Source: Promethearchaeota archaeon Loki_b32 | GTDB lineage: Archaea > Asgardarchaeota > Lokiarchaeia > Sigyniarchaeales > SOKP01 | Reading direction: 5' to 3' | Length of the DNA stretch: 64,000 bases | Assembly: GCA_005223125.1 (NCBI GenBank) | Contig: NJBH01000014.1 | Location: 1-64,000 of the forward strand | Shown here: positions 9,268-30,202 of the stretch, piece by piece | Numbering within the stretch: the first letter of the stretch is position 1 | How the letters are laid out: every line of letters begins with the position of its first letter | Notes under the pieces: model-generated | What the model was told of the DNA's origin: nothing | Databases searched by the model: none | The model's input: the letters and a program-made list of their open reading frames with translations, nothing else | Position numbers and translations under genes: made by a program

Positions 9268-9909
9268 ATGGCTATAAAATTAGGAGAAAATTCATGGATT
9301 TTAATAGGACTAATTTTTTTTGAAATATTGTTTATTATCGTACCTGCCTTGATATCCAGTAAGTTGGAAAAGATGACTTTTACAGATGTAATCAAAGATA
9401 TGGGATTTCAAAGGAATAAGAATCTATTCATCAAAGTAACATCTGGAATAAGTTTTGGTATTTTATTCTTCTTTTTTGGCAATTATATTATTATATTTTT
9501 TAGAGATATTATTATTAGAAATTTGTTGGGTTATAAATTCGTTCAATATGGACAAGAAGGAGTTATTAGTACAGAACCAATTCAACCTAATCTTTTTCAA
9601 CTGATAATCTTTATAATCTTAATTCTAATTATTATTGGACCTTGTGAAGAAGCATTTTTTAGAGGATTTCTTATAAAAAAATTCCAGAAAAAATTGAAAT
9701 TGGCATATTCGGTTATTATCTCAAGTATTTGCTTTACTTTTTATCATGTACCTCCATTTATAGTACCAATAGCTACTATTGTAACATTTTTTGGCTATTA
9801 TTTTACATTTGGACTAATCTTATCTTTCATATTTATCTATTTCGATTATTCTTTAATCCCTTGCTCAATTGCTCATTCTTGCTTTAACATTCTTATCTTA
9901 TTAATATAA
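9268..9909 (+). CDS. CPBP-family intramembrane metalloprotease
   Basis: The 213-residue multi-pass protein carries the catalytic motifs of the CPBP (CAAX protease/Abi) family: EExxxR at EEAFFR (E127, E128, R132), the histidine in FYHVP (H160), and H-x-x-x-N at IAHSCFN (H203, N207). These residues bind the metal within the membrane. Family members include Rce1-type CAAX proteases and bacteriocin-immunity proteins. A prenylated-protein substrate is conceivable in an Asgard archaeon with many small GTPases. However, the GTPase next door (10060-10584) ends without a CAAX box, so I see no specific support for that link. Confidence 0.85.
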   Translation: MAIKLGENSWILIGLIFFEILFIIVPALISSKLEKMTFTDVIKDMGFQRNKNLFIKVTSGISFGILFFFFGNYIIIFFRDIIIRNLLGYKFVQYGQEGVISTEPIQPNLFQLIIFIILILIIIGPCEEAFFRGFLIKKFQKKLKLAYSVIISSICFTFYHVPPFIVPIATIVTFFGYYFTFGLILSFIFIYFDYSLIPCSIAHSCFNILILLI

Positions 9910-10059
9910 TTTTCCTTTTTTGAAAATATTAAATATAAAACAGATAAATATTATTTATAATTAAATCGAAATAAATATGTAGGAACAATATTTCATCATA
10001 CCATTTTTAGAAGTAATATTCTGAATTGTTTAAACCAACCACTATGTAGGTTAAGGAAA

Positions 10060-10584
10060 TTGACGGATTACGATTATACATTTAAAATTATGATGCTAGG
10101 CGATGCATCTGTAGGAAAAACATCCCTTACTATGAGATATATCTCTGGATACTTCATGGAAGACCTCAAATTAACTATTGGGGTAGATTTTTATAGTAAA
10201 ACAACCTCCTTCAAGGATAAAAAAGTTAAATTACAAATTTGGGATTTCGGTGGAGAAGAAAGATTTCGTTTTCTACTTTCTCAGTATAGTAAAGGCGCAA
10301 ATGGAGCATTTTTCTTATATGATATTACTAATCAAACATCATTAGATCACTTACCTGATTGGACACAGGTAATAAGAGAACATGCAGGGGATATTCCTAT
10401 AATGTTGATTGGCTCAAAAGTGGATTTGAATGAATTCCGAGCAGTTCTTCGGGATGATGGAATTTTAGCCGCAAAAAAATACAGTCTATCTTCTTTTGTA
10501 GAACTTTCTTCTAAAACAGGAGAAAATGTAGAAAAGGCTTTCAATGTTATGACAGAAGTTCTTTTCGAAAAGTATTCAAGCTAA
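10060..10584 (+). CDS. Ras/Rab-like small GTPase (TTG start)
   Basis: This 174-residue single-domain GTPase has G1 GDASVGKT (14-21), switch-I Thr about 39, G3 WDFGGEE (61-67), G4 SKVD in place of NKxD, and G5 SSKTG. The G3 position matching Ras Gln61 is Glu, so intrinsic hydrolysis may differ. The start is a TTG at 10060 preceded by an AAGGAA-like ribosome site; the first ATG lies inside the first strand and would cut the P-loop support. There is no C-terminal cysteine for lipid attachment. Asgard archaea encode many such GTPases; the exact process is unknown. It has its own upstream region. Confidence 0.93.
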   Translation: MTDYDYTFKIMMLGDASVGKTSLTMRYISGYFMEDLKLTIGVDFYSKTTSFKDKKVKLQIWDFGGEERFRFLLSQYSKGANGAFFLYDITNQTSLDHLPDWTQVIREHAGDIPIMLIGSKVDLNEFRAVLRDDGILAAKKYSLSSFVELSSKTGENVEKAFNVMTEVLFEKYSS

Positions 10585-10675
10585 TAAATAAATATTATTT
10601 TGGTAATTATCATTTTCCACATTTAAGTAAACTTTAAATGTCCCATCTCACTTATTTTTAAGTACATAATTATAG

Positions 10676-11056
10676 ATGAATTTTATGATTGAAGTTCTTA
10701 ATAAAAAAGAGAAATTAGAAGGTTTCATTGATGGGAAAAAATATATGAATAAAAAAAAGAAAATAATGGGCCTTTTGGAAAACAATGAATTTAAAGATAA
10801 TTCAAGTTATACTCTTCTGGTTCTTAAAGATAATGGGGCTATTACTTGGAGTGACGGGCAACAAAAAGGTTATCTTAAAGATGGTAAAATTTATTCATCT
10901 CTTAACGATAGACACATCTTTGAATTTAAAAAAGAAAAAGGTATGATTTTAGATTCTGATGGGAATACAGTTCTATATCTAAAAGGTGATCTTGACTCTC
11001 TTGAAGATGATGATTTTTTTGGGATTACAGCGCAATTTTTAGAATTATTTGCTTAG
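10676..11056 (+). CDS. Uncharacterised protein with repeated beta-strand units
   Basis: I do not recognise this 126-residue protein. It has no membrane segment. Short repeated turns containing DGK or DG (GFIDGKKY, GYLKDGKIY, DSDGNTVLY) suggest an all-beta fold. The C-terminus is acidic (LEDDD) and then hydrophobic. It lies between the GTPase gene and the selenoprotein pair with about 90-110 bases on each side and could be monocistronic. A role with the GTPase or the peroxiredoxins is not supported by anything I can see. Confidence 0.7.
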   Translation: MNFMIEVLNKKEKLEGFIDGKKYMNKKKKIMGLLENNEFKDNSSYTLLVLKDNGAITWSDGQQKGYLKDGKIYSSLNDRHIFEFKKEKGMILDSDGNTVLYLKGDLDSLEDDDFFGITAQFLELFA

Positions 11057-11154: not shown

Positions 11155-11160
11155 AAGGAG
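11155..11160 (+). promoter_or_regulatory. Ribosome binding site deciding the TTG start of the first selenoprotein
   Basis: AAGGAG at 11155-11160 is a strong Shine-Dalgarno match placed 6 bases before TTG 11167-11169. There is no ATG in the correct frame upstream of the TGA codon, so this site supports TTG as the start and supports translation of the region before the in-frame TGA. Confidence 0.7.
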
Positions 11161-11166
11161 TAGCTT

Positions 11167-11700
11167 TTGACTGAAATAAACAATAAAGAACCCCCAAGAC
11201 CTAAAGGGTTACAAATACATAGTAAAGCACCCCAAATAGATACAACAGATATATATGATAATCCCATTAAATTAGATGAACTATTAGAGTCCTTTAATGG
11301 AGTTTTAATAGATTTTTTTCGAGGAAATTGGTGAAGTCACTGCAAAAAACATTTGAAACTTTTAACTGAAAATATTAATGAATTTGAAAAAAGAAATATT
11401 AAACTTATCTCCATTGCCAGCGATAGTGTCAGACTTCTAAGGAAATTCAAAGAAGAAAATGAGTTTGGTATCGATATGATTTCTGATAGAGGTGCTAAAA
11501 TAGCGAAAGAATATGATGTTTACTGGTTTGCTCCAGGTGGAGGTAAAGATTACAAAATAAAACAAGCTGTACCAAGTAAATTTCTCATCAATAAAGATCG
11601 GAAAATTATCTGGAAATATATAGGAAAAGATAAAACTGATAGACCTTCAATAGAAATGATGACTACCATTATTGATAATCAAATAATTACTCCCAAATAA
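11167..11700 (+). CDS. Selenocysteine-containing peroxiredoxin-like protein (U-x-x-C)
   Basis: Read through one TGA (11332-11334), this frame gives a 177-residue thioredoxin-fold peroxiredoxin-like protein. Before the TGA the protein ends in LIDFFRGNW; after it comes SHCKKHLKLL. The AhpC/TSA-like family normally has an RGxWCxxC active site here, so the TGA stands exactly at the first (redox) cysteine, residue 56, and the second is Cys59. The downstream half (SIASDSVRLLRKF, MISDRGAKIAKEYDV, QAVPSKFLINK, TDRPS) is a complete peroxiredoxin-like C-terminus. TGA is a stop elsewhere in the window, so selenocysteine insertion is the best explanation, supported by the RNA structure after the stop. 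It probably reduces peroxides or disulfides in the cytoplasm. Confidence 0.87.
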
Positions 11701-11764
11701 GAATGACGTGAGTGTAAAAAAATGAGACGCTCAAGGACAAACCTCGTGAGGGTTTTGGGATAAT
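11686..11764 (+). promoter_or_regulatory. Candidate SECIS element of selenoprotein 1
   Basis: A hand fold gives an outer stem that starts inside the last codons (ATTA 11686-11689 and TCCCAAA 11691-11697) and closes with TTTGGGA 11754-11760 and TAAT 11761-11764, so the UAA stop lies within the structure. Next come AUGA (11703-11706), a 7-bp stem TGAGTGT/ACGCTCA (11709-11715/11727-11733) with an 11-base A-rich loop, then AGGAC (11734-11738), and a small hairpin ACC/GGT (11741-11743/11751-11753). AUGA opposite GGA allows tandem G.A pairs as in eukaryotic SECIS cores. The same layout follows the second selenoprotein with compensating base changes. Confidence 0.72.
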
Positions 11765-11765
11765 C

Positions 11766-11785
11766 TTTCTTTTTATTTTTTTATT
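11766..11785 (+). terminator. T-rich terminator after the first SECIS candidate
   Basis: A run of T with few interruptions follows the closing strand of the RNA structure. It suggests that transcription can end after the structured 3' region, so each selenoprotein gene may have its own transcript. Confidence 0.4.
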
Positions 11786-11912
11786 AAAAACTATATAACC
11801 AAATTTAAAATGGAAATTCCGCATTTTCGAAATACATATGTTTAAAACATCTAATTTTATTAATGAGTTTAAGAAATATTGCATTGGAATTGAAAACGAG
11901 GTAATATACACG

Positions 11913-12440
11913 ATGGGTTTAAATAAAGAAGAAACACAGAGACCTAGGGGATTAGGACTTCATATAAAGGCACCAATGATAAACACAATTGACATTTATG
12001 GCAATACAATTAATTTAGCTAATCTCCTTAAAGAATATAAAGGCGTAATCGTTGATTTCTTTCGAGGCACTTGGTGAACTTATTGAAAAGAACACCTTGA
12101 GCATGAAAAAAAGCATTTTCATGAGTTTGAACAACGAAAAATTAAGATTCTCTCTATAGCCAGTGATACGGTTGGACTATTAAAGAAATTTAAAGAAGAA
12201 AACAATTTTCCTGTAGATATGATTTCTGATCGTGGCGCTAAAATTGCAAAAGACTATAATGTCTATTGGTTCGCTGAAGGCTGGGGAAAACTAAAAGTAA
12301 AACAAGCGGTACCTAGTAAATTTCTCCTCAATAAAAATGGTGAAATCATCTGGAAGTATGTGGGACGAGATAAAACTGATCGACCTTCTGTGAGTGCGTT
12401 AATATTCCTTATTGATAAATACTTAATAAATCCCAAATAA
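11913..12440 (+). CDS. Selenocysteine-containing peroxiredoxin-like protein with two Sec codons (U-x-x-U)
   Basis: This paralogue of the preceding gene has two in-frame TGA codons, 12075-12077 and 12084-12086, separated by Thr-Tyr. The local sequence is DFFRGTW-U-TY-U-KEHL, so both cysteine positions of the family's CxxC active site (residues 55 and 58) appear to be selenocysteine. The 175-residue product aligns end to end with the first copy (PRGLGLHIKAPM, MISDRGAKIAKDYNV, QAVPSKFLLNK, KTDRPSV). I chose ATG 11913 because it matches the start of the first copy and follows a GAGG-like site; the frame is open back to an ATG at 11838. A conserved SECIS-like structure follows the stop. A diselenide-forming redox centre would be the result. 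Confidence 0.85.
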
Positions 12441-12502
12441 GAATGATTTGAGTGTGGAAAAATGAGACACTCAAGGACTACCTTGTGAGGGTAATGGGAT
12501 TT
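12428..12502 (+). promoter_or_regulatory. Candidate SECIS element of selenoprotein 2
   Basis: This has the same architecture as the element at 11686-11764. The outer stem AAATCCCA/TGGGATTT (12428-12435/12495-12502) starts in the coding end and encloses the stop codon. AUGA is at 12443-12446, stem TGAGTGT/ACACTCA at 12449-12455/12467-12473 has an 11-base loop, AGGAC is at 12474-12478, and a small hairpin TACC/GGTA is at 12479-12482/12490-12493. Compared with the first copy, a G.U pair becomes A-U in the middle stem, an A-U becomes U-A in the small hairpin, and the outer stem changes on both strands. This pattern indicates selection for structure. Confidence 0.72.
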
Positions 12503-12525
12503 TCTCTTTTTTTATTTTTTTATAA
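12501..12525 (+). terminator. T-rich terminator after the second SECIS candidate
   Basis: A T-rich run directly after the closing strand of the second RNA structure, matching the arrangement after the first copy. It is typical of archaeal intrinsic termination. Confidence 0.4.
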
Positions 12526-27280: not shown

Positions 27281-30202
27281 ATGAGTTATACATTTTCAAG
27301 AATGAAAATGATTGAAAAAATCAAGTTTGGGTTATTAAGTCCCAATGAAATCCGTAGAATGTCTGCGGCTCGTATAATTACTGCTGATACATATGATGAG
27401 GATGGTCTCCCGATCCCGAGTGGACTTATGGACCAAAGACTAGGTACCATCGAACCTGGCCAACGTTGTCAAACGTGTGGTAATCTAGTAAGCAATTGTA
27501 TGGGCCATTTTGGGCACATAGAATTAGCCCGTCCAATTATTCATGTAGGATATGCAAAAAAAGTCTTAAAAGTATTACGGAGTATTTGTCCCGAATGCTC
27601 TCGTTTACTGCTAACTGAAGATGAAAAAGAGAAATTCAGAGAAGAACAATTAAAACACAGAAAAATTTTTTTTGAAGGTGATGAGGATGCGGCTAAAATT
27701 GTGTTTAAAAGAGCAAGAAAATCGAAATTATGCCCATATTGTGGAGCTAAAAAGAAAAAAATAGTAATTGAGAAACCTACTACATTTTATGAAGAAGAAG
27801 AAGGAAGAGGCTCACGGAGAATAACACCTATTGAGATTTTAGAACGATTAAAAAAAATTGGAGACGTAGATCTCAGGATTCTTGGTATTTCACCTGAGAA
27901 TGCAAGACTTGAATGGGTTATATTTACGGTCTTACCAATTCCTCCTGTATGTGCGAGACCATCAATTACATTAGATAGTGGTATTCGTTCTGAAGATGAT
28001 TTAACACATAAATTGGTTGATGTTATTCGAATTAACCAAAGATTAAGGGAAAATATTGATGCGGGAGCACCACATTTAATAGTTGAAGATCTATGGGAAC
28101 TATTACAATATCATATTACTACCTATTTTGATAATCAAGTGTCTGGGATCCCTCCTGCAAGACACCGTTCTGGTAGAGCACTTAGAACATTAACTCAGAG
28201 GTTAAAAGGGAAAGAAGGTAGATTTAGAAGCAATTTAAGTGGAAAGCGAGTTGATTTTTCTGCTCGTAGTGTTATTTCACCAAATCCATATATAAGTATC
28301 AATGATGTTGGAGTACCAATAGAAATTGCGAAAATATTAACAATTCCCACTAATGTTAACGATTGGAATATCGAAGAAATGAAACAATTGGTTTTAAGTG
28401 GACCTTTTAGACATCCAGGTGCTAATTATATAATACGTAATGATCGCAGAAGAATTGATCTTCGATATGTAAAAAACCGGAAGATTATTGCTGATATGCT
28501 CACACCAGGTTTTACAATCGAACGCCATCTAAATGAGGGAGATTTAGTATTATTTAATCGTCAACCTTCCCTTCATAGAATGTCAATAATGGCACACGAA
28601 GTAAAAATAATGGAAGGGAGAACATTTCGATTAAATTTGACTGTATGTCCACCATATAACGCTGATTTTGATGGTGATGAAATGAATTTGCATGTACCTC
28701 AAAGTGAAGAGGCTCGTACAGAAGCAGAGTTACTTCTTAAAGTTCAAAATCACATATTATCTCCACGATTTGGTGGGCCAATATTAGGTGGAATTCAAGA
28801 TTTTATTTCAAGTGTATTTCAATTCACGAGTAAAAATTCAATATACAATAAAAAGGATGCATTAAAATTATTATATACTGGAGATGTTTATAAAAATAAT
28901 CCTAATTTTAATTTAGATCAACTCACACCGGTAACAGTTGATCCAGAACCAATGTATTCTGGAAAAGAAATTTTTAGCACATTGTTTCCAGATGATCTTA
29001 ATATTAGAGTAAAATCTAAGTTTTGTAAGAAATGCGAAGTTTGTGAAGAAGAAAATTGCTTATACGATGCTTATGTCGTAATAAGAAATGGTAAATTGGT
29101 AACTGGAACTATTGATGAAAACTCCTTTGGTGCTATGCAATCAAATAGTATATTACAACGCATTATTAAAGATCATGGTAACGCCTTAGGAAGAATATTT
29201 TTAGATAGTGCAACTAAGATGCTCTTATATGTTATTAGACAGAATGGAATGACAATGGGATTGGATGAGGTTTATGTACATGGACAAGCCTATGAAGAGA
29301 TAGAAAAAATATTGGATGATGCTAATACAGAATCTAATAAATTAATTGATGCATTCAACGATAATGATACAACTTTTCTTAGAAGGGCTCCTGGTCGTTC
29401 AATGAGAGAAACTTTAGAATTAAGAATCAGGCAAGTTTTAGCAGAAGCAAGAAAAAAAGCAGAAGAAACTGCAGCAGGTTTTATTGGTGATGAAGCTCAT
29501 TCTGTTATTATGACTAAATCTGGAGCTCGAGGAAATATATTAAATTTAGGACAAATGTCTGCCGTTGTTGGACAACAAGCGATTAGAGGTGAACGAATTA
29601 ATCGAGGATATAGTATGAGAACACTACCACATTTTAAAGTCAATGATCTTTCACCCAAATCTCGAGGTTTCGTTTCTTCTTCCTATAGAAATGGATTAAA
29701 ACCAGTAGAATTTTTCTTTCATGCAATGGGTGGAAGAGAAGGTTTAGTTGATACTGCAGTAAGAACATCCACATCTGGATATATGCAACGAAGGTTAGTA
29801 AATGCATTTCAGGATATGGTTGTTGAAAATGATGGCACTGTCAGAAACTCGGACAAAAATGTTATTCAATTTCGCTTTGGAGATGATGGGATTGATGCCA
29901 TGCACACTGATCATGGTGCTGCTGTTAATTTAGATGTTTTATTATTGAAGGCTAAAGCTTTGAATGTTGAAGAAGTACGTAAAGAAATTAAAAATATTCC
30001 TACAGAAAAAAAATCACCTCCTAAGAAAAAAATAGTCTCAAAAGAAAAACCCATCGAAAGTACTACTGATAAAGCTAAAAAAGAAGATGGGGATGAAGAT
30101 TCCCTAATGCAGAAATTTGAAGAAGAAACTGGTAAAAAAGCAAAGTGGCGCGGTAAAGAAACTAAAGCTTATTTAAATTGGAAAGAAGAAAAATTGGGAT
30201 AA
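27281..30202 (+). CDS. rpo1N: RNA polymerase subunit A' (Rpo1N)
   Basis: The 973-residue protein is the N-terminal two thirds of the largest RNA polymerase subunit. It has the zinc-binding clamp region (CQTCGNLVSNCMGHFGH, then CPECSRLL and CPYCG), the lid/rudder area with KGKEGRFRSNLSGKRVDFSARSV, and the catalytic Mg2+ loop NADFDGDEMNLH. An extra cysteine cluster (KFCKKCEVCEEENC) lies in the middle. The protein ends with an unusual Lys/Glu-rich extension of about 85 residues after the bridge helix region. A GGAGG site precedes the ATG. The subunit A'' gene follows by 32 bases; rpoB, usually just upstream, is missing here. Confidence 0.97.
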   Translation: MSYTFSRMKMIEKIKFGLLSPNEIRRMSAARIITADTYDEDGLPIPSGLMDQRLGTIEPGQRCQTCGNLVSNCMGHFGHIELARPIIHVGYAKKVLKVLRSICPECSRLLLTEDEKEKFREEQLKHRKIFFEGDEDAAKIVFKRARKSKLCPYCGAKKKKIVIEKPTTFYEEEEGRGSRRITPIEILERLKKIGDVDLRILGISPENARLEWVIFTVLPIPPVCARPSITLDSGIRSEDDLTHKLVDVIRINQRLRENIDAGAPHLIVEDLWELLQYHITTYFDNQVSGIPPARHRSGRALRTLTQRLKGKEGRFRSNLSGKRVDFSARSVISPNPYISINDVGVPIEIAKILTIPTNVNDWNIEEMKQLVLSGPFRHPGANYIIRNDRRRIDLRYVKNRKIIADMLTPGFTIERHLNEGDLVLFNRQPSLHRMSIMAHEVKIMEGRTFRLNLTVCPPYNADFDGDEMNLHVPQSEEARTEAELLLKVQNHILSPRFGGPILGGIQDFISSVFQFTSKNSIYNKKDALKLLYTGDVYKNNPNFNLDQLTPVTVDPEPMYSGKEIFSTLFPDDLNIRVKSKFCKKCEVCEEENCLYDAYVVIRNGKLVTGTIDENSFGAMQSNSILQRIIKDHGNALGRIFLDSATKMLLYVIRQNGMTMGLDEVYVHGQAYEEIEKILDDANTESNKLIDAFNDNDTTFLRRAPGRSMRETLELRIRQVLAEARKKAEETAAGFIGDEAHSVIMTKSGARGNILNLGQMSAVVGQQAIRGERINRGYSMRTLPHFKVNDLSPKSRGFVSSSYRNGLKPVEFFFHAMGGREGLVDTAVRTSTSGYMQRRLVNAFQDMVVENDGTVRNSDKNVIQFRFGDDGIDAMHTDHGAAVNLDVLLLKAKALNVEEVRKEIKNIPTEKKSPPKKKIVSKEKPIESTTDKAKKEDGDEDSLMQKFEEETGKKAKWRGKETKAYLNWKEEKLG

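Follow-up and report, generated by a model that had tools for sequence, protein, structure and literature searches.

Does TGA encode selenocysteine (Sec) at the redox positions of two adjacent peroxiredoxin-like (Prx-like) reading frames in the Lokiarchaeon Loki_b32, or does it mark genes that have decayed? We analysed a window of 64,000 nucleotides (positions 1 to 64,000 of contig NJBH01000014.1), for which the first-pass annotation had described neighbouring paralogues with TGA at U-x-x-C and then U-x-x-U active sites. Translation with TGA read as U gives the same arrangement, with one U in gene 1 and two in gene 2 (Table 1). We assign a probability of about 0.9 to the reading that the two genes belong to a tandemly duplicated Prx-like family in which UGA would be decoded as Sec by way of tRNASec, aSelB and a SECIS element, and whose products would act as selenol-dependent oxidoreductases, the UxxU copy by way of a predicted diselenide.

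Table 1. Features of the gene pair (window positions) and of small membrane selenoprotein genes elsewhere in the genome.
Feature	Position	Strand	Details
Ribosome-binding-site-like AAGGAG	11155..11160	+	Upstream of gene 1 TTG start; sequence
Gene 1, putative Prx-like selenoprotein, UxxC form, 177 aa	11167..11700	+	TTG start, TAA stop; AhpC-TSA 2.4e-22
TGA, predicted Sec56 of gene 1 (RGNW-U-SHC)	11332..11334	+	Codon 56; translation with TGA=U and relatives
SECIS of gene 1	11688..11764	+	R1 match 77.3 bits, E 1.7e-21 in window; covariation
Ribosome-binding-site-like GAGGT	11898..11902	+	Upstream of gene 2 ATG; sequence
Gene 2, putative Prx-like selenoprotein, UxxU form, 175 aa	11913..12440	+	ATG start, TAA stop; AhpC-TSA 2.6e-21
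TGA, predicted Sec55 of gene 2 (RGTW-U-TY-U)	12075..12077	+	Codon 55; translation and relatives
TGA, predicted Sec58 of gene 2	12084..12086	+	Codon 58; Cys in gene 1 and most relatives
SECIS of gene 2	12428..12503	+	R1 match 88.8 bits, E 3.6e-25 in window
Small membrane selenoprotein genes	G000:C70:14425-14667 (L117); G000:C11:35368-35676 (L137)		Relatives among L118-L150

Two constrained frames and their relatives

With TGA read as U, neither gene contains any further in-frame stop, and the remaining two forward frames of each contain many; the ribosome-binding-like motif upstream of either gene is purine-rich. Membership of the AhpC/TSA family, as first proposed, is borne out by PF00578 scores of 79.6 bits for gene 1 and 76.3 bits for gene 2 against a gathering score of 26, while the family falls below all specific NCBIfam cut-offs. 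The expectation that a gene-finder would break both genes was also correct: in the ORF list made with translation table 11, gene 1 survives only as 11353-11700 and gene 2 leaves nothing of 80 aa or more.

TGA is one base change away from TGC and TGT, so the interruptions could represent decayed Cys codons in pseudogenes, or sequencing errors. The two proteins are ~60% identical, with dN of 0.27 and dS of ~1.3, which is near saturation; dN/dS between the copies is ~0.2 overall and ~0.23 on the 3' side of the TGAs. Selection therefore sees the protein past the "stop", with equal constraint, and the two copies are under purifying selection. A family search of the phylum (228 genomes) and of named genomes, with relatives represented mostly by metagenome bins, yielded 59 distinct genes, and the strong matches in the named genomes were all in Lokiarchaeota MAGs. 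The codon at motif position 1 is TGA in every one of these genes; at position 2 it is TGT in 21, TGC in 18 and TGA in 20. Homologues thus show none of the random substitutions at the TGA positions that the first-pass annotation had named as evidence against itself, and all but one of the 59 genes lack an extra in-frame TGA in the domain. The in-frame UGA aligns with Cys of homologues in a frame that is conserved on both sides, the pattern by which selenoprotein genes are recognized; Cys at both positions (CPNC) is met only in a relative from another family, at 29% identity. Conservation of TGA across 59 genes from several genera refutes decay, as do the otherwise open frames, the constraint across the TGAs and the SECIS covariation described below, and we give pseudogenes or sequencing errors virtually no likelihood. 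Judged from sequence, genes 1 and 2 are genuine, intact Lokiarchaeon selenoprotein genes with predicted Sec insertion, and the Lokiarchaeal Prx-like subfamily has, as a rule, a predicted Sec at position 1.

Genome-wide reassignment of UGA, for example to Trp, would also produce several genes with in-frame TGA, as are found here. We consider this explanation extremely improbable, and indeed refuted, since TGA terminates 14 of 55 ORFs sampled within the window, in agreement with the original statement that it acts as a stop elsewhere; moreover, the in-frame TGAs that we found are at redox or hydrogenase sites, in genes with a SECIS downstream.

In a family tree computed without the motif positions, gene 2 lies within a five-gene UxxU clade (support 100/98) that spans two genera, and the adjoining UxxC clade holds gene 1. 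The UxxU label changes at least five times on well-supported branches (six times by parsimony, with a mean of 15.6 for shuffled labels), and the second Sec is therefore a recurrent Cys/Sec toggle. Across the family, these moves of position 2 between Cys and Sec by single-base changes show that a second Sec is freely gained or lost once a SECIS is present. The tandem pair is kept in two relatives (L015/L005 and L016/L004), and L006 and L007 have only the UxxU or only the UxxC copy in the same neighbourhood, with its Rce1-like protease and Ras-like GTPase. This distribution is most readily explained by an old duplication that was followed by losses. Genes 1 and 2 allow a UxxC and a UxxU enzyme from one duplication to be compared within one genome, a good setting in which to ask what an active site gains from a second selenium. 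Upstream in the window, at 9268-11056, are genus-conserved neighbours: an Rce1-like CAAX protease, a Ras-family GTPase and a beta-flower protein.

SECIS elements and decoding machinery

The SECIS elements are the strongest evidence added beyond the first-pass annotation. Similarity between genes 1 and 2 is the same after the stop codons as before them, and the 3' regions of the family share a layout: the first strand of a lower stem is followed by AUGA, a stem of 9 bp, an A-initial loop of 11 nt, GAC, a small hairpin and the other strand of the lower stem. The 5' strand of the lower stem is within the last codons (11690-11695 in gene 1 and 12430-12435 in gene 2), such that the element encloses the stop codon in both genes; that of gene 1 sits in the internal loop. 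Only one SECIS was found for the two UGAs of gene 2. The type I Asgard eSECIS model has a GA_[G/A]A core (mostly AUGA_GA), an upper stem of 7-15 bp and an apical loop of 8-20 nt, and predominates among prxL genes according to PMC11227280; the window elements agree with it in their AUGA, 9 bp, 11-nt loop with AAAAA, and GA.

Nearly all family genes have this 76-nt 3' element, with an AUGA...GA core, an A-rich apical loop and a covarying stem. Compensated changes occur at all nine upper-stem pairs, a shift of the partner strand by 1-3 columns reduces the paired cells from ~80% to 28-50%, and the covariation exceeds that of all 500 shuffles. Single-sequence folding gave weak z-scores, and the structure is clear only from the alignment. 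RNAalifold recovered only the upper stem from the raw alignment, because the positions of the lower stem and of the second hairpin vary by one or two bases from sequence to sequence. We made a covariance model, R1, from the family SECIS; across the window it matches only the two gene-pair sites at a convincing score, and an Rfam scan of the window gave nothing at the gathering threshold.

The small hairpin of the shared layout, at about 11738-11758 and 12478-12495 in the window, is a second hairpin 3' of the GA core (~ACCUUGCAAGGGU); together with the upper stem, it is enclosed by the lower stem, which starts inside the coding sequence in the window genes. It is present in Prx-like, HdrA, MvhD, VhuU-like and selD genes, as well as in those of a small membrane protein family (see below). 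Pairing reaches 85% among 58 Prx-family sequences, and three of the five pairs show compensated changes; the hairpin is less regular in 26 other SECIS sites, where 73% of cells are paired and two pairs show such changes. Both this hairpin and the lower stem were supplied by hand and counted separately, such that these counts lean somewhat towards the given structure. In the two selD genes (3' ends in L095) the hairpin strands are CCACCU/AGGUGG in one and CUGUUG/CAACAG in the other. The Lokiarchaeota SECIS has been described with one apical loop (PMC9499178), and the available portion of PMC11227280 does not mention a second arm of the Asgard SECIS. The conserved second hairpin looks newer than the gene pair itself. 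We see an even chance that the Lokiarchaeal SECIS is a three-way junction, to whose second hairpin the missing archaeal SECIS-binding factor could bind.

The first-pass annotation had also named absence of Sec machinery from the genome as evidence against it. Instead, the whole set of genes for Sec biosynthesis and insertion is present: SepSecS (486.7 bits; cut-off 224.85), PSTK, aSelB, two selD genes and tRNASec. PSTK scores below the cut-off of TIGR03574 (138 vs 290.5), with L-seryl-tRNA(Sec) kinase 3a4l as its best PDB match (2e-25), and aSelB is just at that of TIGR00475 (242.3 vs 242.25), with archaeal SelB 4ac9 as its best PDB match (1e-90). The selD genes are adjacent, and each has UxxC followed by a SECIS-like element. 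We located tRNASec with a pattern taken from relatives, ~0.3 kb from SepSecS on the reverse strand of L094 (G000:C57 around 28500-28650). Its D arm and its T arm each appear to contain an insert, which is why RF01852 and ARAGORN did not detect it; when folded with the two inserts in place, it still forms a long acceptor stem and a UCA anticodon arm. The T-arm intron of Lokiarchaeal tRNASec is known (PMC5330540, PMC9499178), and it is the only insert for which we found a description in the literature on Lokiarchaeota; the two-insert tRNASec looks newer than the gene pair itself. The best RF01852 match was a tRNA-Gly with a T-arm insert, rather than tRNASec. A tRNA-Gly(TCC) with a 36-nt T-arm insert is located at L044 1500-1601 (G000:C29), and was missed by ARAGORN.

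Fold, proposed mechanism and known relatives

An AF2 model of gene 2 (pLDDT 88.9) has a thioredoxin fold, with Bcp4 as its best PDB match (TM 0.82). In this model residue 55 directly precedes the first active-site helix (H56-67) and residue 58 is in its first turn, and the modelled geometry is that of CxxC oxidoreductases; the invariant Sec would occupy the thioredoxin-type attacking position and the variable residue the resolving position. We propose that UGA would specify Sec at position 1 of both genes and at position 2 of gene 2, decoded by tRNASec, aSelB and an Asgard-type SECIS straddling each stop codon; gene 2 would rely on a single SECIS for its two UGAs. The products would catalyse selenol-dependent thiol:disulfide exchange, peroxide reduction or both: Sec55/56, with which helix 1 begins, would attack and residue 58/59 would resolve, so that gene 1 would cycle via a selenenylsulfide (Se-S) and gene 2 via a diselenide (Se-Se).

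It is possible, if rather doubtful, that the proteins are instead true peroxidases of the PrxQ/Bcp kind, with Sec58/Cys59 as the attacking residue at the peroxidatic position. Bcp/PrxQ proteins are the nearest folds, and a phmmer alignment puts the second motif position on the peroxidatic-Cys column; peroxiredoxin Q/Bcp structures (2cx3, 3hjp, 4gqf) share the overall fold (TM 0.7-0.8) at ~20-25% identity. However, ResA-type CxxC oxidoreductases match equally well, the invariant Sec is at the first position rather than the peroxidatic one, and the signature Pxxx(T/S)xxC is replaced by RGNWUSHC in gene 1 and RGTWUTYU in gene 2. Given that both the Pro and the Thr of the peroxiredoxin signature are absent and that the invariant Sec is at the attacking position, we consider disulfide exchange by the selenol, perhaps linked to peroxide reduction, the more likely activity. 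ResA/TlpA (4nmu, 1st9) resemble the gene pair in having CxxC at the start of helix 1 and a Pro before the next strand (AVPSKFL), but the gene pair has no apparent membrane anchor or signal peptide in its 175-177 aa, and has Sec in place of Cys.

The gene pair belongs to a selenoprotein kind already described in Asgard archaea. The first report of a Prx-like selenoprotein in Lokiarchaeota is said to be that of Mariotti et al. in 2016, whose abstract reportedly lists several Sec residues for three of five Lokiarchaeal selenoprotein families; this would favour UxxU having already been seen. The Prx-like selenoprotein prxL occurs in 43.2% of Sec-using Asgard archaea (Huang et al., 2024; PMC11227280), and shares with our genes the host group, the fold, Sec at the redox site and a type I eukaryote-like 3' SECIS; the main text of that source mentions neither UxxU nor an overlap between SECIS and coding sequence, and its sequence table may contain the window genes. 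A Prx-like thiol:disulfide oxidoreductase of PF00578, UxxC/UxxU with one or two Sec, is also a listed prokaryotic class (PMC9312934, PMC13188914); as likened by its description, this class shares the Pfam family and both motif states with the gene pair, and its table example is another protein, WP_010940744.1. UxxU has additionally been reported in marine Prx-like 2 proteins (PMC2398784). The earlier view that a double-Sec site is rare needs correcting: within this family it occurs in 20 of 59 genes, and UxxU Prx-like proteins and the diselenide-forming SelL of animals have been published (PMC9312934, PMC13188914, PMC2398784, PMC3316567).

Two close UGAs would, on general grounds, multiply termination losses, and gene 2 might thus be poorly decoded, with a main product ending at UGA55 and retention as a regulatory or selenium-sensing gene. 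We consider this improbable: UxxU is retained throughout the five-gene clade with full-length constraint, and SELENOL/SelL of aquatic animals, likewise a redox protein, uses a single SECIS to decode two UGAs that are two residues apart (PMC3316567). Decoding of both UGAs of gene 2 remains our preferred reading. A diselenide has been reported for SelL (Shchedrina et al., 2007, as cited in PMC3316567) but is only predicted for gene 2; by analogy, and from the UxxU geometry, the UxxU copy probably forms one too. Scores against NF040769 ("SelL-related redox protein") are 49.4 and 54.7 bits, well below the cut-off of 120.

Further selenoprotein genes found with the SECIS model

R1 finds further Lokiarchaeal selenoprotein genes, which are broken in standard annotation; among them is a membrane family that appears to be undescribed. 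Over the whole genome it adds one more Prx-like gene (the third), an HdrA gene containing Sec, an MvhD/FrhD gene containing two, a fragment resembling VhuU, and two small membrane genes. The latter belong to a family of small single-span selenoproteins with 23 genes in 19 Lokiarchaeal genomes, each gene with an R1 SECIS match directly downstream (1e-8 to 1e-15). Their layout is a basic N-terminus, one membrane span and a Gly- or Asp-rich linker, with Sec mostly in GGUxC, CGUGG or CxxU(H/K)(R/K) contexts. The family matches nothing in Pfam or NCBIfam, is absent from the seven Asgard selenoprotein families listed in PMC11227280, and has no counterpart in the literature searched, which yielded no small membrane selenoprotein from Asgard archaea. 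It recalls eukaryotic SELENOK/SELENOS by layout alone, and its charge pattern suggests the opposite orientation.

UGA serves as the terminator inside the SECIS core, or only a few bases from it, in L015 (a relative of gene 2; around 2027) and in L125, L126 and L141, some small membrane genes among these. Within the same mRNA, UGA upstream seems to be read as Sec and UGA inside the SECIS as stop. Lastly, the VhuU-like short ORF (L103, about 1367-1525; G000:C41) contains FDCULSC, has its own SECIS and directly follows a separate [NiFe]-hydrogenase large-subunit ORF, a split subunit as in methanogens.
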